A DNA stretch of 38,932 nt from Acholeplasmataceae bacterium (GTDB lineage Bacteria > Bacillota_I > Bacilli_A > Acholeplasmatales > Acholeplasmataceae): the NCBI GenBank assembly GCA_030603805.1, contig JAUVXD010000013.1:1-38932 (forward strand), read 5' to 3'. The translations under genes were made by a program, and so were the position numbers. This document shows, in pieces, positions 4,447-24,937 of this stretch. The notes below the pieces were generated by a model that was not told where the DNA came from, did not search any database, and was given only the letters and a program-made list of their open reading frames with translations. Numbering within the stretch: position 1 is the first letter of the stretch; each line of letters opens with the position of its first letter.

Positions 4447-5748
4447 TTAGATTAATCCGACGATGAGTGCGACAACTGCAATCGCACCACCACTAATCAG
4501 TACATAACGCATATTGCCTTTAATGACATCAAAAATTGAAATCTTAAACCCTTCAGACAATGCTGCAACATTAATTTGTACTGGGCTAATTTGTGTACCT
4601 AAACCTACAGAGATTGCAATCAGGCCAAAGGCTAATGGTGACAATCCTGGAATCAGTGATAATGTTGGTAATATGAGCGTCAATACACCTGCTGCAAATG
4701 CACCTGAGGGTATAGCAATCACAAATGCAAATAGACATGCCACAAAGGTAACAATCCAACTCGGAGCACGTCCTACAAGCGCAGCAAGTTCATCGAAAGT
4801 CCCTAAGAAACCAATCATATTAATGAAACCTAAGAATATACCAACACCAAAGAGTGTTGTTAAAATGTATCTAGATCCATCAATTAAGTTTTCACTCACT
4901 TGATTAGGTTCAGTCTTGCAGAAAATGACACAAAGAATGGCTGCCACTAAAACATTGATGAAAGGTACTAAGAAGGGCACTGGAAGTAATTGGTTTATTT
5001 TTCCACCTAAAATCACAAGTACCAAGAATGTTAATGCAGGAATAACACGCAACCATAAGGATTTCGTATCCATACCTTCAAACTCGTTTGTTGCTTTTTC
5101 ACCTTGTCTAATCATATTGCCTTTTTTATATACACCCCAAAATGCTAAACCAGCTCCAAGAAGATAGACAATGATTGTAAAGGGTAACATCATATTCGCA
5201 AAATTACCTACTTCCATCCCAGCAGCTGTTGCAGTAAATGCTGTTTCAGTCGACGCAGGTGAGGTTGTAAAACCAACAGCTGTAACGATTGCCATTGCAG
5301 CAACAACTTCGGGTAAGAATCCAACAGCAGCTGCCATTAATGGTGCAATAACCATAGTATTACCAGCACCCATACCTGCCATATAGGTTGCTAGACCTTG
5401 AACTAAAACGATTGCAGCTGCCAAATAAGCGATTTTACCTTTAAGCACACGATTAAGTGCTTCAATTAATGCTTTTATACTACCTGAACGTGCTATCATA
5501 ACGGCTCCAGCTGCATAAATCACTGGTGCCAAATATAGAGAAAGCATATTTCTCACACCAACATTCACAACCAAGTTGTTAATGTCTAAAGGTTTAATTC
5601 CAGTTTCAAGTGTTCCTGTTGCTACTAAAATCCATGAAACAATTATCGCAAGAATACCACCAACCAAACCAGCAACGAGCATGTGTTTTTTTCTTATGAG
5701 TAGAAATAAAATCACTGCCAATGGGAGAATCATTAAAATTAGTTCCAT
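4447..5748 (-). CDS. Ion-transporter-superfamily permease, probable partner of the amidohydrolase
   Basis: A 433-residue integral membrane protein with about 11-12 helices. Two conserved Gly/Pro/Thr-rich halves recall the IT superfamily (CitMHS, DcuC and GntP relatives): GMGAGNTMVIAPLMAAA and TSPASTETAFTATAAG in the first half, IPSGAFAAGVLTLILP and GTQISPVQIN in the second. Members usually move organic anions in symport or antiport. It begins 23 bases after the stop of the ring-opening amidohydrolase on the same strand, with AAAGG before the ATG, so the two genes form an operon. I infer that it carries the amidohydrolase substrate or an acidic product; the exact substrate cannot be read from sequence. 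Confidence 0.75.
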   Translation of the reverse strand: MELILMILPLAVILFLLIRKKHMLVAGLVGGILAIIVSWILVATGTLETGIKPLDINNLVVNVGVRNMLSLYLAPVIYAAGAVMIARSGSIKALIEALNRVLKGKIAYLAAAIVLVQGLATYMAGMGAGNTMVIAPLMAAAVGFLPEVVAAMAIVTAVGFTTSPASTETAFTATAAGMEVGNFANMMLPFTIIVYLLGAGLAFWGVYKKGNMIRQGEKATNEFEGMDTKSLWLRVIPALTFLVLVILGGKINQLLPVPFLVPFINVLVAAILCVIFCKTEPNQVSENLIDGSRYILTTLFGVGIFLGFINMIGFLGTFDELAALVGRAPSWIVTFVACLFAFVIAIPSGAFAAGVLTLILPTLSLIPGLSPLAFGLIAISVGLGTQISPVQINVAALSEGFKISIFDVIKGNMRYVLISGGAIAVVALIVGLI

Positions 5749-5771: not shown

Positions 5772-6875
5772 TTATTTTTTTATAATAACAGCAATCGGTC
5801 CGCCACCGTCTGGTCCTTGGTGCTCAGCACCTCCAGAAATATAGACCATCGGATCTTGGACAACTGCTGCAATAACTGCATTAACAACCGCTCTTGCTTG
5901 ACGCGTGTGGTTGATATCTGAATCTGTGAGCATGGTATGTCTTCTTCCACGAACCTCACCATATGAACTTGCTTCTGCTTTTGCAAGAACATTAACGATT
6001 TGCTTACACTGCTCATCTGTAGGTAGGCGGTCAATCTTCATACCAGCAGATTCTAAAGCTTCAATGACTGCTTTTAAATCGATAGCATCCTTCATAACAG
6101 AATGTCCAATCGATAAATTGGAAGCAGATTGGTAACTATTTCCCATCACAATAATTTCACAATTCATCAATTCGATTCCTGCTGAAGTGGATGCAACATT
6201 TGAATAAAGTGACCAATCTTTGCAGATAACATCTTGTGTGACGAGTTCTTTTTTGATTTCACCTAGAGCAACTGCAACTCCCAGTGCACTAGCACCGCGA
6301 GAAAATCCCATTGATTTATAGGTATCTTCAACCACTACTTTTTTTCCTCTAGCCTTTGCATCTTTAATACGTTCTGATGTCAATAAAGGACACTTTATTT
6401 GGACAAAGTGAACATCTTTCGGATCACTTAAACCAGCTTCTAACATGAGCTTTTTGACCACTCTTTCAACTTCAATCACCATATCCACAGTACCTATTTC
6501 TTCTGGTTTAAAATCTCTTGTAAATCCAGAAGCTGCTACAAGTCTCTTTTCTTTTGAAGCCTCCTGATTCACATCTTTTTTAACAAAAATGGTTGCATGT
6601 GGAGACATGACCCCTTCGGTTCCACCTGACATAACAAAAGCAACACGATGCATCACTTCTTCATCAGAAAGTTTCAAGTGCTTTGTTAAGGATGTCCTAT
6701 AGGCAAATGTAGCTAATGCGCGTGTGAAGTCATTCACACACCCATTGCCTTCTGTTTTACCTAAGACTGCGATTATTTCTTCGGGTTGAATGGTATGGCT
6801 TTGGATGAGTTTTTCAAACGATCTTAGATCATCTGGAGATGACATAGGGATGCGAAAAACTTCAATTTTCTGCAT
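5772..6875 (-). CDS. Ring-opening amidohydrolase (cyanuric acid hydrolase/barbiturase family)
   Basis: These enzymes hydrolyse a C-N bond of a small N-heterocycle: cyanurate to carboxybiuret (biuret plus CO2) or barbiturate to ureidomalonate. The start is the ATG at 6875; the GTG three codons earlier sits in the ribosome site AAGGAAGTG. At 367 residues it matches the family. All three repeats with their Lys/Ser pairs are visible: K40 (LGKTEGNG) with S83 (MSGGTEG), K161 (VQIKCPLL) with S229/S231 ([11 protein letters not shown]), and K299 (AKAEAS) with S347 ([14 protein letters not shown]). The choice between cyanurate and barbiturate is open. It is co-transcribed with the following permease. 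Confidence 0.93.
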
Positions 6876-6912
6876 ATGATTCACTTCCTTTTCTTTTTAT
6901 AAGATTATTCTA

Positions 6913-6926
6913 TCAAAGCGCTTTCA
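6913..6926. promoter_or_regulatory. Catabolite-response-element-like box
   Basis: Read on the minus strand, TGAAAGCGCTTTGA differs by one base from the ideal palindromic cre (TGAAAGCGCTTTCA). It lies 38 bases before the amidohydrolase ATG, where CcpA binding would block transcription. CcpA itself is not in the window. Confidence 0.55.
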
Positions 6927-7052
6927 TTTAGTATATGTAATTTTACACAAATAAAAAGCCTTCTGAATGTGAATAAGTGACAATTCACTGTTTTATCGGT
7001 ATTTATGTGTAAAAATTATGATTTTCTTAAGAGTCAATCCTTGATAAAAAAA

Positions 7053-14198: not shown

Positions 14199-14822
14199 TT
14201 ATTTCGTTCCAAAAAGACGATCTCCTGCATCGCCTAATCCAGGGATGATATAGGCATGATCATTTAAATGCTGATCTAGACTAATTAAATAGATCTCTAC
14301 ATCAGGATGCTTATCTAAAATACGATTCACACCCTCTTGAACACCAATCAAAGAGAGCACCTTAATTTCTTTAACCCCTTTTTCTTTTAAAAATTCAATG
14401 GTTTTCATGATACTACCACCAGTTGCTAATAAAGGATCTAAAATGTAGGTCATTGCATCTTTAATATTAGGTGGGAATTTCGCATAGTAGACTTGTGGAA
14501 CCAATGTTATTGGATCTCTATACATACCAACATGTGCAATTTTAAGGGAGGGTATCAGATTTTGAATGCCTTGTGTCATCCCTAATCCCGCCCTTAATAT
14601 GGGTATAATCACGATATCTTTAATCAGTTGATATCCAACTGTTTTTGCCATAGGAGTCTCAATTTCAATTTCTTTCAAACCTAAGTCTCGAGAGATTTCA
14701 TAAACCATCAGTGCAGAAAGTTCTTCTACAATTTCTCTAAACATCTTTGTACCACATGATTGATCTCTAATAATCGATAATTTATGCTTCATCAGTGGAT
14801 GATTAAAAACATGTAATCCCAT
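14199..14822 (-). CDS. upp: Uracil phosphoribosyltransferase
   Basis: Makes UMP from uracil and PRPP in the cytosolic pyrimidine salvage pathway. The 207-residue length is standard. The PRPP-binding loop is YILDPLLATGGS (about 126-137), and the uracil-binding end is YIIPGLGDAGDRLFGTK at the C-terminus. CAAGGAGG stands before the ATG. It follows the carbamate kinase gene on the same strand after a U-tailed hairpin. It may therefore be expressed partly by readthrough from the heterocycle operon or from a promoter I cannot see. Its position may be chance, since upp is a common housekeeping gene. Confidence 0.97.
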   Translation of the reverse strand: MGLHVFNHPLMKHKLSIIRDQSCGTKMFREIVEELSALMVYEISRDLGLKEIEIETPMAKTVGYQLIKDIVIIPILRAGLGMTQGIQNLIPSLKIAHVGMYRDPITLVPQVYYAKFPPNIKDAMTYILDPLLATGGSIMKTIEFLKEKGVKEIKVLSLIGVQEGVNRILDKHPDVEIYLISLDQHLNDHAYIIPGLGDAGDRLFGTK

Positions 14823-14837
14823 AGATTCCTCCTTGAA

Positions 14838-14860
14838 AAAAGGCGATTTTCTCGCCTTTT
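14838..14860 (-). terminator. Terminator at the end of the carbamate kinase operon
   Basis: A 9-bp stem AAAAGGCGA/TCGCCTTTT, which overlaps the stop of the carbamate kinase gene. The minus strand continues with TTCAAGG. It separates the operon from upp and could act as an attenuator. Confidence 0.75.
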
Positions 14861-15788
14861 ATGATTGATAAATAATCGTCCCTGCCTTACCTTTAACAGC
14901 AAGTGCAGCTTCTTCTAGACTTGCAATAATCGCTTGTCCATTTTTATTGGATTCAACAAACTGGACAGCTGCAACAATTTTAGGTTCCATACTTCCTTTA
15001 CCGAACTCTGAAGTTTCAATATAGTGTTTTGCTTCTTTAACAGAAAGTTTAGAAAATTCAAGTTCATTAGGTTTTCTAAAGTTCACAGAAACACGTTTAA
15101 CAGCCGTTAAAATGATAAACACATCGGCTAAAATGAGTTCAGCAAGTTTCGCACTTGAAAAATCTTTATCAATAACTGCTGCAACACCTTTTAATGTGTC
15201 TCCTAAGACGACTGGGATGCCACCACCACCTGATGCAACAACCACAGTATCCTTTTCAAGTAAATGTTTAATCACATTTTTTTCAATAATATCGACTGGT
15301 AGTGGACTTGGTACAACAAAACGATATCCTCTACCAGAATCTTCTACCATAGGTAATCCAGTTTCTTTAACGAGTTTTTCTGATTCTTCTTTAGTATGGA
15401 ATCTACCAATTGGTTTTGTTGGATTTTTAAATGCAGGATCTTTAGGATCAACCACAGTTTGAGTCACAATGGTTGCCACATCCTTTTTAATATGTCTTTC
15501 TTTAAGCGCATTAAAAATCGCATTTTGCAAATGATATCCAATATAACCTTGACTCATCGCGCCACATTCAGGAAGCGGCATCTCTGGTATCGTTAATTTG
15601 ACTTGATGTGCCGTTTCAAATGCACTTTGAATCATACCCACTTGTGGACCATTGCCATGAACAACAACAACATGATGTCCTTGCTCAACAAGGTCTGCTA
15701 CACTATGTGCTGCATGTTTTACCAATTCTAATTGCTCACTTGGATTGTCACCCAAAGCATTACCGCCGAGTGCAACTAAGATTTTCAT
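14859..15788 (-). CDS. arcC: Carbamate kinase
   Basis: Converts carbamoyl phosphate plus ADP to ATP and carbamate, which decays to NH3 and CO2: a substrate-level energy step. The 309-residue length and motifs are typical: VALGGNALG (residues 4-12), VVHGNGPQVG, PECGAMSQGYIGY, VVASGGGGIPV and DKDFSSAKLA. Its ATG overlaps the TGA of the DUF1116 gene (ATGA). No arginine deiminase or ornithine carbamoyltransferase is near. Carbamoyl phosphate therefore most likely comes from the FdrA/DUF1116/DUF2877 complex encoded just upstream, as in E. coli, where the equivalent kinase is called AllK. Confidence 0.97.
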   Translation of the reverse strand: MKILVALGGNALGDNPSEQLELVKHAAHSVADLVEQGHHVVVVHGNGPQVGMIQSAFETAHQVKLTIPEMPLPECGAMSQGYIGYHLQNAIFNALKERHIKKDVATIVTQTVVDPKDPAFKNPTKPIGRFHTKEESEKLVKETGLPMVEDSGRGYRFVVPSPLPVDIIEKNVIKHLLEKDTVVVASGGGGIPVVLGDTLKGVAAVIDKDFSSAKLAELILADVFIILTAVKRVSVNFRKPNELEFSKLSVKEAKHYIETSEFGKGSMEPKIVAAVQFVESNKNGQAIIASLEEAALAVKGKAGTIIYQS

Positions 15789-17206
15789 CGTTTCTCCTCC
15801 TTAATGTGTTTAACAAAATCCTCCAATGCTTTTTCAAAGCAAGCCATAGGTGGGTGAACAAGACCAGCGCCGACTTGACCAACACCTGCTTCTTTATGTG
15901 CCATACCTGTGTTAATGATAGGCAAAATACCTGTTTCAATCACTTTTAACATGTCAATCCCACATGCTGTTGGCATAAAATCTAGAGGTGGTAATGTGAA
16001 AACTTGATGTCTATCTTGTGCAATTTCATGCATGGATTTTGAATAATCAAATGCTTGTTTAACAACACCACCTACAAACTGAACAATCGCTGGTGCGCCA
16101 CCCATTGCAAATCCTCCAATACCAAAGGTTTCAGTAATGGCACTATCTCCAATATCTGGTGCTGCATCATCTTCACTAAATCCTGGAAACATCAATCCTT
16201 TGACATAATTGGCAGGTGCTTGATACCAATCATTTGAGTGTGAAAATTGTATACCAAAATCGACACCATTACGACTCATCGCTGTAAGTACAGTTGAATA
16301 GGGTATATTTCTTGCTGAATCTAATGCGAGTTTGCAATATGGCATGGATAAATTTAAAAAGTAATGTTCATTTTTTCTAATAAAATCAAGTGTTTCAGCT
16401 TTTTCTTGTTCACTAAATGTCGTTTGAATAATGTATCCTGCAATTTCTCTTAAGAAAAGTGCAGATGATGCCTTATTCCGATTATGACATTCATCACCCA
16501 TATGAAGCGCTTGAGTAATCAAACTCTTCACATCGATACCGCCTGACAAGATTAATGCTTCATTCATCACAGGTGCAAACGTCTTTTCAATCCATTTCAA
16601 GCGATTGATGACTTCTTGAGAATTTGCCCCATATCTTAAAACTTTGCCCAATCCTTCATTAATGGTGCAGTAACTATAATTTCGATCCACAATATTATAG
16701 AGCACATGCACAGGCATTGATGGTGAAATAATGCCTGCCATTGGTCCAACAGCGTCATGATGATGCGCACTATCAAAAATAATGGCACCAGATTCAGCAA
16801 GTTTAATCGCTTCTTTTTCTGTTTTAGCTAGACCTTCATAAATGAGTGCACCAATAATGGCACCCTTCATCGGACCAGCCATGTGTTTAAAAGCTATCGG
16901 AGGACCAGCATGTAAAATGGTATGTTTGGTCATATTGGGAATGACATCAAATGCTTTTTTAACAGCAATCAGTCTACCTTCTGCTTTTTTAATCTTTTCA
17001 ACAGCTTTTCGATTTCCTTCATCGATTAAAGCTTGATAAGGCTTTATTGCACTGAGCAATGATAAAAGCTTCGTATTGCCTGATGCTGGAGGATTCCATT
17101 CTAAATGTGTATAAGTCACATGTTGTTTTTCAAAATCTTTCTTAAAACTTGGTGATCCTACATTAACGACCTTAATGGGCGAGTTAAATAAATCTTGGAT
17201 GCTCAT
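15785..17206 (-). CDS. allG: DUF1116 protein, AllG-like subunit of a transcarbamylase
   Basis: A 473-residue protein of the YlbE/DUF1116 family. In E. coli this family member (AllG) is one of three proteins needed for oxamate transcarbamylase. Family segments seen are HAGPPIAFKHMAGPMKGA (about 94-111), DSAHHHDAVGPMAG (about 144-157), GDECHNRNKASSALF (about 232-246), and DFGIQFS followed by KGLMFPGFSEDDAAPDIGDS. Conserved His, Asp and Glu residues suggest a catalytic or metal role, though the mechanism is not established. Its ATG overlaps the fdrA TGA by ATGA. I am sure of the family; the actual substrate here may differ from oxalurate. Confidence 0.92.
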   Translation of the reverse strand: MSIQDLFNSPIKVVNVGSPSFKKDFEKQHVTYTHLEWNPPASGNTKLLSLLSAIKPYQALIDEGNRKAVEKIKKAEGRLIAVKKAFDVIPNMTKHTILHAGPPIAFKHMAGPMKGAIIGALIYEGLAKTEKEAIKLAESGAIIFDSAHHHDAVGPMAGIISPSMPVHVLYNIVDRNYSYCTINEGLGKVLRYGANSQEVINRLKWIEKTFAPVMNEALILSGGIDVKSLITQALHMGDECHNRNKASSALFLREIAGYIIQTTFSEQEKAETLDFIRKNEHYFLNLSMPYCKLALDSARNIPYSTVLTAMSRNGVDFGIQFSHSNDWYQAPANYVKGLMFPGFSEDDAAPDIGDSAITETFGIGGFAMGGAPAIVQFVGGVVKQAFDYSKSMHEIAQDRHQVFTLPPLDFMPTACGIDMLKVIETGILPIINTGMAHKEAGVGQVGAGLVHPPMACFEKALEDFVKHIKEEKR

Positions 17207-18738
17207 GATTTCACCCCTTCAACGAGTTTTGCAGCAATAAGTGCTGCGTGTGCATTTGTTTTTGCAACAAGGATTCCTAAACTTTTGAGTCTTTCTTCTG
17301 AAGATGCTAAGTTTTGTGCGTCTTTATCAGTACCACAGACATAAGCCACAATACTTAAATGTCGTTGTTCTTTTTTTGCAATGTCTTGAGCTTCTTTTAG
17401 TGCCTCAAGTGTGACACCGATAGGATCTTCATGTGAGCCTAATCCAAGCTCAAAATCAAGTAAGAGAACAGCAGTTTCAGGTAGTTTAGCCTCATGTAAA
17501 ATGCGTTCTAACCTGATGGTAGGTTCAATCATTGGATGTGGTTTCCCTAAAGTAAAAATATCATCACCTAAATCCACTAAATTATGACCTGAACTCACCA
17601 AAGGATTCTTCATTTTTTCAACTTCTTTTTTTGCAACATTTGAAGTTAAATCTTTAACATGAGGTCTTAAGATAGAAAGTGCTTCAGCAGTCAGTGTGCC
17701 ACCACAAAATAAGCCTTTTATTTTGGATTGTGTTGGCTTAAACAGTGCTTTTTCTTTTTGAATCACATGAAGTAGTTCATCATCAATTTGAGTTAAATCA
17801 GGCGTTTTTAATCCTGTAAGTTCGAGTGCTTTAATGGCTGCATCCGTCAAATTGGATACAACATGAACGTTTTTGATGTCAACTTCGTGTTTGGAATCGA
17901 GTAAACACACAACCACTGGTTTCGTGATGTGCTTTAATCTTGAAATGATTTTTTCTAAAACTGTTGGATGTGGTGGTTTACTAATTAAGACAATGACTTT
18001 GGTATCTAAGTCTTGATCAAGTGCATCAATACCTTTGAGCATCATCATGCCTCCAACTGCTTCTGATAAGTCTCTACCACCGACACCAATCGCATGTGTA
18101 ATGCCACCTTTAAACCGGTCAATGATGACTGTTACCTCTTGTAGTCCAGTACCACTTGCAGCAACTAAACCAATGGATCCTCGGCTCACTTGATTAGTGA
18201 AACATAATCCTATGCCACCAATAATTGCAGTTCCACAGTCAGGTCCCATGACTAAAAGATCTTTTTCAACTGCAATCTTTTTTAACTGGATTTCATCTTC
18301 AACACTGACATTATCACTAAAAAGCATGACATGAAGTCCATGTTCTAAAGCTTTGTAAGCTTCATGTGCCGCATAAATACCAGGAACACTGATGACTGCG
18401 ATATTCGGTGCAATTGCATCAAAAGCCTGATGAATGCTACGATAAACTGAAGTACCTTCATCACTTTTTTTAGTTTTCGCTGATAGACGTTCAATAACCA
18501 AATTCGACCAATCCTTGATCTCCTGATCAAATTCAGCAGCAAGAATCAAATCATTAGGTTCAGCTGAATCTATATCAATGTGATATAAGCCTACAGATTT
18601 AATCATTTCTTTATTCATGTCAGTACCCATCAACATGACCAAATCTTTAAAACCTAATTCTTTTTTTAAACTGACACTCGTACTCATAAGTGTTACAGAA
18701 TCAAAATAACTGTTTTTTAATACTTTATAGTCTTTCAT
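17203..18738 (-). CDS. fdrA: FdrA (AllF-like), acyl-CoA-synthetase-fold subunit of a transcarbamylase
   Basis: 511 residues from the ATG at 18738, which has AGAGGTG 8 bases upstream; a frame opening 9 codons earlier has no better site. FdrA has the fold of succinyl-CoA synthetase alpha subunits, with repeated CoA-binding-like domains. It shows VMGPDCGTA (163-171), VAASGTGLQEV (192-202), GVGGRDLSEAVGG (218-230) and a later LFCGGTLTAEAL. In E. coli the homologue is AllF, required with AllG and AllH for phosphorolysis of oxalurate to oxamate and carbamoyl phosphate. Here it lies between the DUF2877 and DUF1116 genes with a 13-base gap upstream and ATGA overlap downstream. Involvement with a different ureido substrate is inferred from context. 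Confidence 0.95.
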   Translation of the reverse strand: MKDYKVLKNSYFDSVTLMSTSVSLKKELGFKDLVMLMGTDMNKEMIKSVGLYHIDIDSAEPNDLILAAEFDQEIKDWSNLVIERLSAKTKKSDEGTSVYRSIHQAFDAIAPNIAVISVPGIYAAHEAYKALEHGLHVMLFSDNVSVEDEIQLKKIAVEKDLLVMGPDCGTAIIGGIGLCFTNQVSRGSIGLVAASGTGLQEVTVIIDRFKGGITHAIGVGGRDLSEAVGGMMMLKGIDALDQDLDTKVIVLISKPPHPTVLEKIISRLKHITKPVVVCLLDSKHEVDIKNVHVVSNLTDAAIKALELTGLKTPDLTQIDDELLHVIQKEKALFKPTQSKIKGLFCGGTLTAEALSILRPHVKDLTSNVAKKEVEKMKNPLVSSGHNLVDLGDDIFTLGKPHPMIEPTIRLERILHEAKLPETAVLLLDFELGLGSHEDPIGVTLEALKEAQDIAKKEQRHLSIVAYVCGTDKDAQNLASSEERLKSLGILVAKTNAHAALIAAKLVEGVKS

Positions 18739-18751
18739 CAATGAGTCACCT

Positions 18752-19546
18752 CTACATACATCCACAAATAAAACCAGTTAAGATACCAGCACCGCTGGTT
18801 GAACCGAGTTTTAAAATGGATCTTGCGCCTTCTATGTTGTTATGGATAAATAAATCTTCAATCATTTGAATAAAAATCTCCGGGTATAATCTTAAAAATG
18901 TATCTTCTAAATTTTGAGCACTTAACTTACTTGTTTTCTTCTGAGCCTCACTCACTAATGACTCAATCCATGGTAAAGTTTTACCCACAGTATTTAGTCC
19001 TAAAATGAACCCTGTGAGGATATCATCACCTAGTGGCGTGAGCCCCATTCCTAAGCCTAAAATAGATAATGCTGATGGTAATCCTGGTGCTGCTAAGAAA
19101 ACACCGATTTGATCAAACTGAAACTTTAACCATGGATTATCTTGTTGGTATCGATAGAAGTTTTCAGTGTGATGGTTTTCAACATATGCCTTCAATTCCT
19201 TAAATGTATGATAAGATGCTGAATTCATGCGATATGTCATCACATAAGGATCATATTTTTTAATCTTTGATTCATCAATCTTCATGTCGAATAGAGGATG
19301 TGAAATCACACCCTCATGTCGATAAATGAATATATCCCCAACTTTAAAATCTATTGTGTTAAAGGATATCTGATCTTCAATAACAATATGGTGTTTCCCA
19401 TGACCCACATGATGACCAATGGTAATTATTTTTTTGTTCACCATGATGTGCATGGTACGCGCATAAATCCCATAAATGATAGCACCATGGTTTTTGATTT
19501 CATCTAGAACAGAAGCATCTATTGATAAAACATTAGTGGTTTTCAC
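18752..19546 (-). CDS. allH: DUF2877 protein, AllH-like subunit of a transcarbamylase
   Basis: 264 residues of the YlbF/DUF2877 family. The hallmark segments are GLGMGLTPLGDDILTGFILG (about 165-184) and the C-terminal LGSTSGAGILTGF. In E. coli this protein (AllH) is the third part of oxamate transcarbamylase. The start is GTG with only a weak AGAAAG site, but it overlaps the end of the upstream permease gene by 14 bases, so translational coupling is likely. No ATG exists near that would keep the N-terminal region. No membrane segments. Confidence 0.9.
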   Translation of the reverse strand: MKTTNVLSIDASVLDEIKNHGAIIYGIYARTMHIMVNKKIITIGHHVGHGKHHIVIEDQISFNTIDFKVGDIFIYRHEGVISHPLFDMKIDESKIKKYDPYVMTYRMNSASYHTFKELKAYVENHHTENFYRYQQDNPWLKFQFDQIGVFLAAPGLPSALSILGLGMGLTPLGDDILTGFILGLNTVGKTLPWIESLVSEAQKKTSKLSAQNLEDTFLRLYPEIFIQMIEDLFIHNNIEGARSILKLGSTSGAGILTGFICGCM

Positions 19547-21059
19547 TTTCTACATTTTCATGCTTTCTATAGAAGTTCATGATGACAAGCACCAATGCAA
19601 CTGCAACATAGCCTAATGCGACTTGCCATCCTGTTGCAAAACCTATTTGTGGTGCATGTAAGAAACCAAAGAAAGCAAGCACCGCTGTAATGAGCGCATA
19701 AACAGCAGAAACTAAATATTTCTTATCAATAATGAAAATGACGATTGTTGCTAACATCATACCTACTAAAATATCTCCTGCAGCTAGTCTTTCCCAACCT
19801 AAAAGTGGAATACCTGTATTTGCTAACGCTTGATAATCTAGCGTACCTCCTGATGCAGCAATGGCATTTTTAATGTTTAATGTCACAAAACCTGCAATTA
19901 AAGGAATAAAAGATAGTGCAACTGCTGGCATATGTTTCTTTTCAGTTGTTGCAAATGCTTGTGTGGTAATGACCATACCGATATACATCAAAATGGGTAA
20001 TAATGCAACTAGTGGAATAATGGTTAATATGAAGTTCATAAAGCCAAGGAATGCTAATAATAATATGGCAACACCAGTGACCCATGAATATCCAATTCTT
20101 GCGCCAGTAGACTTCCATCCTGGATGTCCAATGTAAATAATCGTTGGAAATGGTGAGCCAAGGAAAGAACCTAAAATGGTCAGACCTGCTGGAACCATCA
20201 TCGCTTTAGGCACATTATAAGATTCACCCGATGCTTCTGCGGATTCCAAATTATCTAAGCTTTCCATGAAATCGTAGATTGCAAGTGGAATTGCTGCTGG
20301 TAAGAAAGGTGCAATTTGTGCAAACCCACGACCAAATAAGTTGATAGCAAGATTTGGTAAACTTAAACCTACATTGCTTAAAGATGTCCCTACTGCTTGT
20401 GGATCCATATAACCTGTAACCCAAGCTAAAATGGTACCAATCATAATCGCAAATGCACCAGCTGGAATATTAAAAGGCATTTTTTTAAGTGCAAACCATC
20501 CCACAAAGATAATCGCTAATGAAGTTAATCCAATATAAGGTGTTGTAAAGACTTGACCTGCTGGATTCATCGCAATATATGTAATTGCAAGACCTGCAAG
20601 TGCACCTAACATCGCTGCTCTTGGAATATATTTTTTAATATAAATCCCGACGAATGCACCTGTAGCCATAATAATACCTTGAATAAAATTCCAAACAACG
20701 CCTGCAGCCCATGCTACAGTCCAGTCACCGGTTGCTGCAAAGACAACAGCAATAACACCGAATGCTACAACAAAGTAGTGAGGAACTGATAAACCATAAG
20801 GCATTGCAGTTACATCACTTTTCTTAGAACGTATTGAAAGTTGTTTCGCTTGTAGAGCTAATATAATACCACCAAAACCAACAGCAATCGCCGTACCTGG
20901 GACGATGCTTCCAAACACGATGTTGTTGGGCATTCCAATGACTAAAAGTAAGCCAGTTGCTGCTAAAAAGTTCGTTAAAACGTTAGAAAATAAACCAAAA
21001 AATCCATTTAAATCGCCTTTGACCCACCAAGGTGTGCCGCCTACTAATTTTTTAAACAT
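19533..21059 (-). CDS. NCS2/AzgA-like heterocycle permease, copy 2
   Basis: A 508-residue membrane protein with about 12-14 helices, of the xanthine/uracil permease superfamily. It begins with WWVKGDLNGFFGLFSNVLTN, then has SDVTAMPYGLSVPHYF, KKYIPRAAMLGALAG, FMESLDNLESAEASGESY and FPTIIYIGHPGWK. The MESLDNLESAEA segment corresponds to the substrate-binding helix region with conserved acidic residues in this superfamily. It is clearly a paralogue of the permease at 21723-23246. A GGGAG site precedes the ATG. The operon context suggests uptake of cyanurate, barbiturate, biuret or another planar ureide-like compound rather than common purines. That is inference. Confidence 0.87.
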   Translation of the reverse strand: MFKKLVGGTPWWVKGDLNGFFGLFSNVLTNFLAATGLLLVIGMPNNIVFGSIVPGTAIAVGFGGIILALQAKQLSIRSKKSDVTAMPYGLSVPHYFVVAFGVIAVVFAATGDWTVAWAAGVVWNFIQGIIMATGAFVGIYIKKYIPRAAMLGALAGLAITYIAMNPAGQVFTTPYIGLTSLAIIFVGWFALKKMPFNIPAGAFAIMIGTILAWVTGYMDPQAVGTSLSNVGLSLPNLAINLFGRGFAQIAPFLPAAIPLAIYDFMESLDNLESAEASGESYNVPKAMMVPAGLTILGSFLGSPFPTIIYIGHPGWKSTGARIGYSWVTGVAILLLAFLGFMNFILTIIPLVALLPILMYIGMVITTQAFATTEKKHMPAVALSFIPLIAGFVTLNIKNAIAASGGTLDYQALANTGIPLLGWERLAAGDILVGMMLATIVIFIIDKKYLVSAVYALITAVLAFFGFLHAPQIGFATGWQVALGYVAVALVLVIMNFYRKHENVESENH

Positions 21060-21079: not shown

Positions 21080-21742
21080 TTATTTTTTTAAACCTAATAA
21101 CAATTTTTCACTTGTTGTCGTCCAGCCAAATATACCACCTTGTTGATTAATCATGCGAATTGCAGCTTCCTGATCTCTAGGGTCAAATGCTGCTGTACCA
21201 TCTTCAATCATGAGACATTCATATCCTCTATCGTTTGCTTCACGAATGGTCGTATGGACACATACATGTGTCGTGACCCCGCAAAAAATTAGTGATTCAA
21301 TACCTTGATTCTGTAAAATGAGATGTAAATCTGTTTGATAAAATGCACCTTTGCCAGGTTTATCTAAAACGACTTCATTTGGCAATGGTTTAAGTTCATC
21401 GACAATATCATGCCCATATTCTCCACGAATCAAAATTTTACCCATAGGACCATCTTCACCAATGGCAGATGAACGTCTTTTTTTCGCCTTTGGAACATCA
21501 CTTAAGTCCGGACGATGACCTTCTCTGGTATGGATGATAAACATCTTTTTCTCTCGTGCTGCGTCGAGCACTTTTCTCACTGTTGGAATAATCGATTTGG
21601 TTGGTGTAATATCATTTCCTAAAGCTTCTCCAAATCCTCCAGCCTCACAAAAATCACGTTGCATGTCAATGATGATTAGTGCTGTTTTCTTAAGATCAAA
21701 ATCAAAAGTAAACGGTTTTGCTTCAACTTGATAAAGTCTCAT
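21080..21742 (-). CDS. Isochorismatase-fold amidase, biuret-hydrolase-like
   Basis: A 220-residue cysteine hydrolase. The triad is readable: Asp26 (IIIDMQRDF), Lys128 (LDKPGKGAF) and Cys161 (GVTTHVCVHTT). The segments HTREGHRPDLSDVPKAKKRR, GPMGKILIRGEYGHDI and REANDRGYECL are the pattern I know from biuret hydrolases, which turn biuret into allophanate and NH3, and from their closest relatives. Other members act on ureidoacrylate or N-carbamoylsarcosine, so the substrate is not certain. The start has AAAGGAG 8 bases upstream and overlaps the previous permease gene by 20 bases. It sits between two permeases and upstream of the FdrA set, so its product probably feeds phosphorolysis. Confidence 0.88.
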   Translation of the reverse strand: MRLYQVEAKPFTFDFDLKKTALIIIDMQRDFCEAGGFGEALGNDITPTKSIIPTVRKVLDAAREKKMFIIHTREGHRPDLSDVPKAKKRRSSAIGEDGPMGKILIRGEYGHDIVDELKPLPNEVVLDKPGKGAFYQTDLHLILQNQGIESLIFCGVTTHVCVHTTIREANDRGYECLMIEDGTAAFDPRDQEAAIRMINQQGGIFGWTTTSEKLLLGLKK

Positions 21743-23246
21743 CTTTTATTTCTCCTTTAGAGCGATAGTATAGAAAATAACCCATAAATATGATTGCAAT
21801 CAAAACATAGCCAATCGTCATGCCTAAGTTTTGATTAATTCCCACTTGTCCTGCATGAATGATTCCAAAAAAGGTTAAAACTGCTGCAATACCTGATGTA
21901 ATCGTTGCATGAACAAACTTATGATCAATTATATAGACCGCAATCGAACCTAAAATCATCCCTACAATGATACTGCCTGCACCTAAACTCATCATGCCCA
22001 AATAATTAAGTCCAGAGATTTCTAGTAAGTTAAATCCAACAGTTCCTGCATTTGTACCAGCAGCACCTAACGCAATATCAACCGCATTTTTTGTCCAATC
22101 AGCAAGCCAAGGGATAATCGCAAGCACAACTGCTGGTGCATATTTGTGTGAAACTGAGGTAAATGCTTGTGTTGTAATGACAATACCGATATATAAAAGA
22201 ATCGGAAGAATGGCAACCACTGGAATTACATTGAGTAAAACAGAAATCATACCCACTAAAGTTAGAATAAAGAGCACGAGTCCACCGACAAAAGAATATC
22301 CGATTCTAGCTCCAGCTTCTTTCCAACCTGGATGTCCAATAAAGATTGCGGTTGGAAATGGATTACCAAATAGTGAGCCAACAATGGTTGTGACTCCATC
22401 AGCGACCATGGCTTCTTTTGTCGAGTAGTGATCCCCAGCAACGGCTGCGGATTCACAGTTATCTATGGTTTCAAAAAAGTTGTAAATCCCTAATGGAATT
22501 GCACTGAACAAGAATGGTAGGGCACTTTGAAACCCATCAAAATATCTAGTAACACTTGGAACAGGTACTCCTAATTGAACATTTCTAATGCTATCGAGTA
22601 GTGCTGTACCACTCATAAGTCCACTGCTCCACCCAATAATAACCCCAACAATAATTGCAACCAGCCCTGTTGGAATATTGAAAGGCATTTTTACTTTTCC
22701 AACCCAACCAAGTAAAACAATGGCTAATGCAACTAAGCCTATATAAGGCACTGCAAATGAATTAAATGCTGGATTTAAAGCAATATAGGTAATGGAAACC
22801 CCTGCGAGTGAACCAAGCATTGCAGCTCTTGGTAAAATTTTTCTAACTTTCGCTCCAATAAAGCTTCCAATAAGTTCAATAATACCCTCAAGAAGTGACC
22901 ATACTAATCCAGCAGACCATGCGAGATAAGCATTTCCTGTTGCCCAGTAAACTGGACCAATAATTAAAAACACAATTAAGAACATGTGAGGTACTGAAGT
23001 ACCTGCAGGTAATGCAGTCACATCAGATCTTGATTCTTTTCTCGCAAGTTTTACTGCCATAAAACTATAATAAATCGATGAGATGAAAATAGATAATCCA
23101 ACTGCAGGTAGTATTCTACCGTAGACAATATTTCCAGGTAAACCAACAACAACAGATAAAAGACTGGCCATCACTAAGACATTGGTTAAGTTATTGGTGA
23201 AAAGTCCAAAGAACCCATTCCAGTCACTTTTTACGAAATATTTCAT
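21723..23246 (-). CDS. NCS2/AzgA-like heterocycle permease, copy 1
   Basis: First gene of the operon. The ATG at 23246 has a strong GGAGGTG 7 bases upstream, giving 507 residues; the frame opening at 23273 lies over the -10 box and cannot be the start. About 12-14 helices. Motifs match copy 2: DWNGFFGLFTNNLTN, SDVTALPAGTSVPHMF, RKILPRAAMLGSLAG, FFETIDNCESAAVAGDHY and FPTAIFIGHPGWKEAGARIG. At the key helix this copy has ETIDNCESA where copy 2 has ESLDNLESA, so the substrates may differ. Its divergent neighbour is the PucR-type regulator, which probably controls it. Confidence 0.87.
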   Translation of the reverse strand: MKYFVKSDWNGFFGLFTNNLTNVLVMASLLSVVVGLPGNIVYGRILPAVGLSIFISSIYYSFMAVKLARKESRSDVTALPAGTSVPHMFLIVFLIIGPVYWATGNAYLAWSAGLVWSLLEGIIELIGSFIGAKVRKILPRAAMLGSLAGVSITYIALNPAFNSFAVPYIGLVALAIVLLGWVGKVKMPFNIPTGLVAIIVGVIIGWSSGLMSGTALLDSIRNVQLGVPVPSVTRYFDGFQSALPFLFSAIPLGIYNFFETIDNCESAAVAGDHYSTKEAMVADGVTTIVGSLFGNPFPTAIFIGHPGWKEAGARIGYSFVGGLVLFILTLVGMISVLLNVIPVVAILPILLYIGIVITTQAFTSVSHKYAPAVVLAIIPWLADWTKNAVDIALGAAGTNAGTVGFNLLEISGLNYLGMMSLGAGSIIVGMILGSIAVYIIDHKFVHATITSGIAAVLTFFGIIHAGQVGINQNLGMTIGYVLIAIIFMGYFLYYRSKGEIKDETLSS

Positions 23247-23271
23247 CAATGCACACCTCCCTATGCTTCTC

Positions 23272-23277
23272 ATTATA
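23272..23277 (-). promoter_or_regulatory. -10 box of the heterocycle operon
   Basis: A perfect TATAAT on the minus strand, 25 bases before the first permease ATG, with a T-rich, weak -35 region. This suggests that an activator is needed, which fits PucR-type control. Confidence 0.5.
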
Positions 23278-23332: not shown

Positions 23333-23360
23333 TTGTAATTTTTTATAAAGATGCTACAAT
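23333..23360 (+). promoter_or_regulatory. Promoter of the PucR-family gene
   Basis: TTGTAA (23333-23338), a 16-base spacer and TACAAT (23355-23360). The predicted start of transcription falls at the ribosome site, 10 or so bases before the ATG, so the leader is very short. Confidence 0.5.
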
Positions 23361-23377
23361 ATCATCGAGGTGAATCT

Positions 23378-24937
23378 ATGAAAACAACGATTAAAGATTT
23401 ACTTGAACGTGCAATATTTGAGTCCTATGAAATCTTAAGTTCTGCCAATCATTTAGAAAGAAGTTTTGAAAGCATCTCCATCTTGGAAACACCAGACTTT
23501 GAAAATTACATCATAGAAAAAAGTTTGATACTTACAACGTTTTATCCTGTTAAGCAGGACGTTGAAACATTTAAGAAACTTCTTTTTGCTTTAAACAAAA
23601 AAGATACAGCTGGCATTTTTGTCAAAATGAAACGATATATTGATGTCATTCCTGAAGAGATTTTAAAACTAAGCGATCAACTCAATATTCCCATCATTGC
23701 ACTTAATTATGATGCCAATCTTTCTTTGCTTTTTAACAATATACTTAGTGAACTACAGTCCCAAGATTATTCAAATTTTGCATTTGATGCCAATTATTCT
23801 TTGTTCTTAAAACAAGTCTATGAAAATCCTTCAACTAAGACACTCATGCAAATCGTTGAGAAAATTCCTGATCTTGAGTTACTCATTCAAAATTTAGACA
23901 ACAAAACTACGTATGCTTCCCACGATCATTTACTTACCTATTTGAATCAATCTAAGAGTACAAAAAACTTATTTCAACGAATTGGTGATACTCTCTACTA
24001 TTCCGAAGATGTTATCTATGATGAAAAACCAATCTATCATTTTGTGTTCATGGCCAAAAATGACCGAAGACATATCCTTCATAATTACATCGAAATATTC
24101 AAACTCATGATCATTGTTATCCATCAAAAAAAGATTGAAAACACATTAAAACAAAATCAATTCCTTTTAAATTTCATCTCTAATGTTTCATCAAATTATA
24201 CAAACACTCAATTGATTGAAGCCAGCAAGAGATATAATTGGAATGTTATATTTCCAGTCACCTTAGTCTTGTTTTCAATCAAAGAAAATCATAAAAGTGT
24301 ATTAAACCCAAATATGATTGAATACATGCGTACTGTAATGATTAATAAATTTCATCTCAACTCAGACGAACTGAGATATACCATTATTACAGATCAGCTT
24401 CTTTTTATCGTTAATACGCTTAACACACTCAAAATAGATGAAATCATTCAAAATGTCTATCAAACGTTAAAACATAAATATCGAGATATCAGTTTTAAAA
24501 TTACATATTCCAACTTAATTGAAGAAGCTTCTGAAATAGCAAAAAAGTACTTCCAGTTATCGGAAGCACTAGTTCATGTTGAAACGAAAAATCTATCTGT
24601 TGATATTTTTAGAGAAGATCACATAAAAGTACTAAATTTACTTAAAAACATCGATTATATTCATTTGAAAGAATATGTATTTAGTTTGTTAAAACCTTTA
24701 ATTGATTATGAAAAATCAAATAATACACCTTTAATTGACACCTTACATCAGTTCATCGAGTGCAGGTTTAATATTAGATCTACTGCTGAAAAACTCTTTA
24801 TTCACTACAACTCTGTACGGTATAGACTTGATGTCATCGAGTCTTTAGGCTATCATATCACAACAGGCTCTGATGGTTTTTTTGATCTCTATTTTGGACT
24901 CTATCTTTATAGAAACTTTGAACCATCAACTCATTAG
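23378..24937 (+). CDS. PucR-family transcriptional regulator
   Basis: 519 residues from the ATG at 23378 (GAGGTG 5 bases upstream). The N-terminal half (about 1-125) is the PucR-type ligand domain, with SLILTTFYP and the IPIIALNYDANLSLLF strand-helix. A GGDEF-like relic region lies in the middle. The C-terminal helix-turn-helix (about 455-519) reads LIDTLHQFIECRFNIRSTAE, then LFIHYNSVRYRLDVIESLG, as in PucR/CdaR proteins. PucR activates purine breakdown genes in Bacillus. Divergence from the permease-amidase-FdrA operon makes it the likely activator responding to the heterocycle or an intermediate. Confidence 0.92.
   Translation: MKTTIKDLLERAIFESYEILSSANHLERSFESISILETPDFENYIIEKSLILTTFYPVKQDVETFKKLLFALNKKDTAGIFVKMKRYIDVIPEEILKLSDQLNIPIIALNYDANLSLLFNNILSELQSQDYSNFAFDANYSLFLKQVYENPSTKTLMQIVEKIPDLELLIQNLDNKTTYASHDHLLTYLNQSKSTKNLFQRIGDTLYYSEDVIYDEKPIYHFVFMAKNDRRHILHNYIEIFKLMIIVIHQKKIENTLKQNQFLLNFISNVSSNYTNTQLIEASKRYNWNVIFPVTLVLFSIKENHKSVLNPNMIEYMRTVMINKFHLNSDELRYTIITDQLLFIVNTLNTLKIDEIIQNVYQTLKHKYRDISFKITYSNLIEEASEIAKKYFQLSEALVHVETKNLSVDIFREDHIKVLNLLKNIDYIHLKEYVFSLLKPLIDYEKSNNTPLIDTLHQFIECRFNIRSTAEKLFIHYNSVRYRLDVIESLGYHITTGSDGFFDLYFGLYLYRNFEPSTH

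Follow-up and report, generated by a model that had tools for sequence, protein, structure and literature searches.

The DNA analysed here (the window) is a contig of 38,932 nucleotides from a member of the Acholeplasmataceae, a wall-less bacterium. On its minus strand it carries a gene predicted to encode a cyanuric acid hydrolase (CAH), an adjoining transporter gene, named permX, and an operon with genes for homologues of AllF, AllG and AllH and a carbamate kinase. Many herbicides and pool chemicals have cyanuric acid as their core. The features are listed below by their positions in the window; G003 and G033 are two related genomes, the former from the same genus and the latter from another genus.

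4447 to 5748, minus strand: permX, membrane transporter with an MleN/INDY/TRAP-like fold, placed in the ion-transporter superfamily; 23 bp separate it from the CAH gene, which is upstream
5772 to 6875, minus strand: predicted cyanuric acid hydrolase (AtzD/TrzD family), 367 aa (PF09663, 537 bits; NF052395, 551 bits; 67% to Moorella 6bum)
6911 to 6927, minus strand: conserved upstream element ATGAAAGCGCTTTGATA before the CAH gene, of which ATGAAARCGCTTTGATA is common to the CAH upstream regions of G003 and G033
14199 to 14822, minus strand: upp, uracil phosphoribosyltransferase, final gene of the operon (TIGR01091, 260 bits)
14859 to 15788, minus strand: arcC-type carbamate kinase (TIGR00746, 364 bits, above cut-off)
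15785 to 17206, minus strand: AllG homologue (DUF1116), carbamoyltransferase subunit, the only AllG of the genome (PF06545, 303 bits)
17203 to 18765, minus strand: AllF homologue (FdrA), carbamoyltransferase subunit with CoA_binding and Ligase_CoA domains (NF004760, 481 bits)
18752 to 19546, minus strand: AllH homologue (DUF2877), third subunit (PF11392, 58 bits)
19533 to 21059, minus strand: nucleobase (NCS2/AzgA-like) permease a, 61% to a Peptoclostridium protein annotated as xanthine permease in a syntenic operon
21080 to 21742, minus strand: TrtA-like cysteine hydrolase (triuret/biuret-hydrolase family), best PDB match TrtA 6xix
21723 to 23273, minus strand: nucleobase (NCS2/AzgA-like) permease b, 58% to the second permease of that Peptoclostridium operon
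23351 to 24937, plus strand: PucR-family regulator, divergent from the operon; in G003 and G033 the homologous regulator (42-43% identical) points away from CAH in the same manner

The CAH reading frame is intact, from an ATG at 6875 to a stop codon ending at 5772, with AAGGAAG just upstream of the ATG and a second in-frame start candidate, a GTG, at 6884. A first-pass annotation of the window had read the product as a ring-opening amidohydrolase with three intact Lys/Ser pairs, and both points were confirmed. The full-length Toblerone-fold profile (PF09663/TIGR02714) covers the protein with 528-537 bits, a profile search found it to be the sole PF09663 protein of the 2.06 Mb genome (E 1.5e-161), and its closest solved structure is the Moorella thermoacetica CAH (6bum, E 6e-152, 67% identity). 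The pairs K40/S83, K161/S231 and K299/S347 have the same numbering as the dyads of the Moorella enzyme (PMC6557486), and in the alignment all three triads are complete (K40/S83/R52, K161/S231/R193 and K299/S347/R325) and E235 is present, the roles of the residues being taken from PMC4051656 and PMC6557486. The dN/dS values of ~0.12-0.14 against the G003 and G033 orthologues indicate that the gene is under purifying selection. Judged from its sequence, the protein is almost certainly active as a cyanuric acid hydrolase. Upstream of the gene, ATGAAARCGCTTTGATA is kept in the window, G003 and G033, while the rest of these regions aligns poorly. The element resembles a cre box (catabolite repression) with one mismatch; such matches were not clearly commoner than in shuffles, and conservation alone is therefore claimed for it.

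The first-pass annotation had named cyanurate or barbiturate as the ring to be opened; the former is retained and the latter given up. At position 193 the window CAH has an Arg, whereas the barbiturase 5hwe and its clade have an Asn in the alignment. In the phylogeny, which had been proposed as a check, the protein falls in a four-row clade with Tenericutes and Amphibacillus sequences (support 99/98), and its nearest characterised row is the Moorella CAH, the deep forks being weakly supported. Because of Arg193 and this place among the CAHs, cyanurate and not barbiturate is the likely substrate. Barbiturase identity, for which a residue other than Arg (Asn in 5hwe) was looked for at this position, was rejected on the Arg found there and on the tree. 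The call does not rely on NF052395, the 'cyanuric acid amidohydrolase' equivalog model, since this model scores both activities: it also passes a barbiturase-clade protein of Embleya (L055:28544-29635) with 486 bits, the cut-off being 360. It may thus misname barbiturases, and Embleya was struck off the CAH-AllFGH lineages for this reason. A barbiturase acting in a pyrimidine pathway, in which AllFGH would split ureidomalonate into carbamoyl phosphate and malonamate, would suit the nearby upp and NCS2-like permeases, the acyl-urea structure that ureidomalonate shares with oxalurate, and the arcC gene adjoining the barbiturase-clade gene of Embleya. It is nevertheless extremely improbable in view of Arg193, the tree place with the Moorella CAH, the inhibition of the latter enzyme by barbiturate (PMC6557486) and the lack of AllF or AllG near the Asn-type loci described below.

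As had been noted in the first-pass annotation, the CAH gene shares its strand with the FdrA operon but lies outside it and has its own permease; 7.3 kb separate it from upp and 8.0 kb from arcC, and the genes in between are unrelated. No Pfam match was obtained for permX, and its AlphaFold model (mean pLDDT 68, moderate) had MleN as top Foldseek match (E 1e-6) and is also like INDY. Homologues adjoin CAH in G003 (76%), Amphibacillus (53%), enterobacterial plasmids (38%), Aminobacter pSR8 (38%) and an alphaproteobacterial metagenome-assembled genome (34%). The transporter probably carries an anion, cyanurate or its product, the model naming the superfamily and not the substrate. Within the operon, permease a had no Pfam match either, AllH is fast-diverging (22-54% identity among the homologues compared), and most relatives likewise have upp as the final gene. 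Unlike in Enterococcus and E. coli, no allantoin genes (allB/C/D/E) were seen in the operon of the window or next to it. Urease was found in none of six genomes tested. The single amidase of the window genome was rejected as AtzF (135 bits versus an allophanate hydrolase cut-off of 511), and no amidase there scores as AtzE/AtzF. G003 has no Pfam amidase, hence no AtzE/AtzF, and no urease.

The cysteine hydrolase of the operon had been called biuret-hydrolase-like, a description that fails for the window protein and fits the relatives. TrtA has the catalytic residues D24, K129 and C162 and the specificity residues F35, N41, A134, E160, Y187 and I205 (PMC7948467). The window protein keeps the catalytic Asp-Lys-Cys triad and the substrate Lys and Gln of TrtA and BiuH (PMC7948467, PMC5806882), and at the six specificity positions it has F N A H F I, matching TrtA at 4/6 and differing at H160 and F187. 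Where BiuH has Y/Y/D/T (TrtA positions 35, 41, 160 and 187), it has F, N, H and F, and the BiuH model NF050097 gave 285 bits, below its cut-off of 370; no second BiuH was found in the window genome. The F N A H F I pattern is also present in relatives from the window's genus and in Peptoclostridium (L054:4184-4858), whereas the E. coli ColV-plasmid protein has the full TrtA signature, F N A E Y I, and the G003 and G033 cluster proteins have Y Y A D T V, as in Rhodococcus BiuH. By these residues the window and Peptoclostridium proteins, with His for E160 and Phe for Y187, are predicted to be a third, TrtA-like class of the TrtA/BiuH family.

The co-occurrence of CAH with the operon in relatives, another proposed check, was borne out. 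In a set of 61 genomes, made up of 60 relatives and that of the window, CAH was present in 3 and AllG in 11; all three CAH genomes have AllG, on the same contig and within ~10 kb of CAH. The probability that three genomes drawn at random would all belong to the 11 with AllG is C(11,3)/C(61,3) = 0.005, relatedness being ignored. In G003 and G033 the genes form one contiguous unidirectional cluster, CAH-permX-NCS2-BiuH-AllH-AllF-AllG-arcC, with PucR divergent; arcC is followed by upp in G003 and by NCS2b, a TrtA-like gene and upp in G033. The CAH-permX pair is common to the window, G003 and G033. This contiguity and the recurrence in other phyla and on plasmids sustain the earlier suggestion that CAH is linked to the FdrA (AllFGH)/carbamate kinase operon, and a pathway link of CAH to AllFGH/ArcC is highly probable. 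Eight same-genus relatives have the operon in a TrtA-like or bare form without CAH, so that the operon must have another main substrate there; as the window CAH is also 7-8 kb outside the operon, the window AllFGH need not be tuned to the cyanurate product. The 7.3 kb of unrelated genes and the presence of CAH in 2/20 sampled members of the window's genus would agree with a recent, stand-alone nitrogen-scavenging gene that has no metabolic tie to the operon. Such an origin is decidedly improbable, however, given that the same genes are contiguous in G003 and G033, that the upstream element is conserved, that the only AllG of the genome is on the same contig, and that the window genome lacks a urease and any amidase that scores as AtzE/AtzF, with which the breakdown of biuret could be completed.

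Beyond the relatives, Amphibacillus cookii has the order AllH-AllF-AllG-arcC-CAH-permX-NCS2, the alphaproteobacterial genome has AllG and AllF divergent from permX-CAH, and Rokubacteria have AllF-AllG-CAH or ABC transporter-AllG-amidohydrolase-CAH-NCS2-AllH. Among loci sampled from Methylomirabilota and Alphaproteobacteria, those with AllF or AllG nearby numbered 6/34 of the Arg type, 0/18 of the Asn type (barbiturase-like) and 1/2 of the Lys type, all lower bounds because of contig ends and simple ORF calling; the Lys-type locus concerned also has a TrtA-like gene. The proportion among the Arg-type loci indicates that CAH works with other partners too. In the distant Bacillus subgroup, AllFG is absent from the neighbourhood.

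In a plasmid collection, CAH ~62% identical to that of the window was found in Citrobacter, Klebsiella, Enterobacter, Leclercia, Raoultella, Serratia and Aeromonas. Five such plasmid regions were examined and have the order (permX-)CAH-NCS2-AllH-AllF-AllG-arcC or a TrzD version; neither BiuH nor TrtA was found within the enterobacterial and Aeromonas clusters of the former order. On pSR8, a plasmid of an atrazine-degrading Aminobacter, the order is permX-AllF-AllG-CAH-arcC-amidohydrolase-ABC-AllH, and throughout the aligned sequence the CAH matches TrzD (5t13) with 100% identity, so TrzD itself sits in an AllFGH-arcC cassette. A Klebsiella plasmid also has a CAH identical to TrzD between AllG and arcC, as on pSR8, with atzF upstream of the cassette. 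No copy of the plasmid cassette was found in E. coli complete genomes, and no match in phages. The cyanurate cassette is carried by an IncX5 plasmid with blaKPC-2 (L042:1-17700) and by other clinical Enterobacterales plasmids. E. coli IncF/ColV-type plasmids (L062:3816-11994), including many avian E. coli plasmids, have TrtA-AllH-AllF-AllG-arcC-cytosine permease-LysR. On atrazine plasmids, atzC is directly behind arcC and a broken AllG (DUF1116) fragment (Arthrobacter D5-1, L058:6001-8697; Pseudomonas EGD-AKN5, L059:6001-8488), as if it had been excised from a cassette of the pSR8 kind, with AllFG-arcC-amidohydrolase.

In both the AllG and the AllF trees, the CAH-linked type of the enterobacterial plasmids and the TrtA-linked type of the ColV plasmids are sisters (100/100; AllG 78% and AllF 65% identical). 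The AllFG of Amphibacillus (CAH-linked) lie next to those of Peptoclostridium (TrtA-like-linked), and the Tenericutes types are intermingled, with weak deep forks. Both CAH and TrtA release 1-carboxybiuret (PMC7948467, PMC6219798). This shared product, together with the sister AllFG, suggests that AllFGH phosphorolyses carboxybiuret (or biuret); the simplest shared substrate would be carboxybiuret or its decarboxylation product, biuret. Both compounds bear the same carbamoyl-NH-CO- group as oxalurate. For E. coli AllFGH, cleavage of oxalurate into carbamoyl phosphate and oxamate is reported (PMC11326118). The E. coli AllFGH and AllK/YbcF (PMC11326118, PMC9843812) resemble the present system in their three homologous subunits, the kinase and the presumed phosphorolytic chemistry. 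In contrast, AllF and AllG are 38% and 45% identical, the oxalurate AllG of E. coli and Enterococcus forms its own branch with the window AllG outside (deep forks weak), and the genes linked here are CAH or TrtA, without allantoin genes.

Comammox contigs carry trtA-biuH-atzF with allFGHK and without the carboxybiuret decarboxylase gene trtB (PMC12625717), an arrangement that fits AllFGH in the trtB slot and that the authors read as oxalurate degradation. The biuH-trtA-allFGHK clusters of comammox bacteria and AOA also have ureide hydrolases co-located with allFGHK, but they lack CAH, are found in aerobes and were interpreted as separate triuret/biuret and oxalurate routes (PMC12625717). Read in this manner, the window would hold two adjacent, separate nitrogen pathways, with CAH and its permease scavenging nitrogen and the operon degrading oxalurate of the allantoin route like E. 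coli AllFGHK. Besides the comammox/AOA precedent, the oxamate carbamoyltransferase activity reported for the E. coli enzyme (PMC11326118) speaks for this, and the PucR regulator, the NCS2-like permeases and upp fit nucleobase catabolism. It is quite improbable all the same, as the window operon and its neighbours have no allantoin genes, the oxalurate AllG is on a separate branch, and several lineages have CAH placed within the AllFG-arcC series of genes.

What follows ring opening, including the AllFGH substrate, transport, the ATP gain and the growth benefit, we infer as follows. Cyanurate and related ureides would be imported by permX and the nucleobase permeases, and CAH would open cyanurate to 1-carboxybiuret, which would lose CO2 to give biuret. 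AllF-AllG-AllH would act as a reverse carbamoyltransferase, converting carboxybiuret and Pi to carbamoyl phosphate and allophanate or, alternatively, biuret and Pi to carbamoyl phosphate and urea; the allophanate from the carboxybiuret split is what the atzF beside the TrzD cassette would take. Enzymes of the carbamate kinase class make ATP from carbamoyl phosphate, and the kinase would here use carbamoyl phosphate and ADP to form ATP, leaving NH3 and CO2. The TrtA-like hydrolase would provide a second entry, by which triuret-like compounds would be converted to carboxybiuret (or a similar acyl-urea). As G003 has neither amidase nor urease, AllFGH-ArcC is its only visible exit. We consider this explanation as a whole, from the CAH product through AllFGH phosphorolysis to ATP by ArcC, to be probable.

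A variant would make allophanate the AllFGH substrate: the CAH product would decarboxylate spontaneously to biuret, BiuH would convert biuret to allophanate, and phosphorolysis of the latter would give carbamoyl phosphate and carbamate, and then ATP. This would account for the BiuH with a biuret-type signature directly before AllHFG in G003 and G033, and for G003 being left with AllFGH as the sole candidate for the last step. However, no BiuH is near the CAH and AllFG genes in the clusters of the plasmids, Amphibacillus and Rokubacteria, the atzF next to the TrzD cassette would be redundant, and allophanate resembles oxalurate less than carboxybiuret or biuret do. The variant thus appears rather unlikely, and action of AllFGH on carboxybiuret or biuret rather than on allophanate is somewhat favoured.

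The window CAH is 67%, 59% and 54% identical to Moorella thermoacetica CAH, TrzD (NRRL B-12227) and AtzD (Pseudomonas ADP), respectively, with all Ser-Lys-Arg residues kept. The partners of AtzD are AtzEG, AtzH and AtzF, whereas the downstream genes here are AllFGH and carbamate kinase. The scheme resembles the arginine deiminase pathway in its succession of deimination or ring opening, reversed carbamoyltransferase and carbamate kinase with formation of ATP, but the transcarbamylase family is unrelated and the substrate here would be a triazine or ureide. To our knowledge, the only assayed members of the cassette are CAH/TrzD homologues and the distant E. coli AllFGH. The component families are already known; in the open-access literature, to which the search was confined, no paper joining CAH to FdrA/AllFGH was found, and the combination of CAH, AllFGH and carbamate kinase is apparently undescribed there. 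The cyanuric acid breakdown routes described in the literature cited are hydrolytic and serve nitrogen use, and the joint occurrence of CAH and ATP-yielding genes suggests an undescribed fermentation of cyanuric acid. We tentatively propose, at slightly less than even probability, that some AllFGH complexes constitute a subfamily of their own, with carboxybiuret/biuret carbamoyltransferase activity, which, with CAH or TrtA and carbamate kinase, forms a widespread, mobile, energy-conserving (fermentative) pathway for cyanuric acid and triuret, the original home of TrzD. If true, energy would be saved as carbamoyl phosphate, giving a genetic basis for anaerobic cyanurate use, and much of the FdrA/DUF1116/DUF2877 family would gain an assigned function. 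The proposal would further be relevant to how genes for the degradation of s-triazine herbicides arose, with TrzD and probably atzC stemming from such cassettes, and, through the transmissible Enterobacterales plasmids, to the handling of cyanuric acid in gut and wastewater.

Other neighbours of the ring-opening genes were observed in Rokubacteria and Embleya. Many Rokubacteria CAH genes (L148-L170) adjoin a xanthine-dehydrogenase-like molybdenum hydroxylase, sometimes with AllF/AllG, and this enzyme could supply the CAH substrate by oxidation of a ring compound. In Embleya (L055:28535-30674), the barbiturase-clade gene (Asn193) is next to an arcC-like carbamate kinase gene with AllFGH ~17 kb off, which is possibly a parallel barbiturate route.
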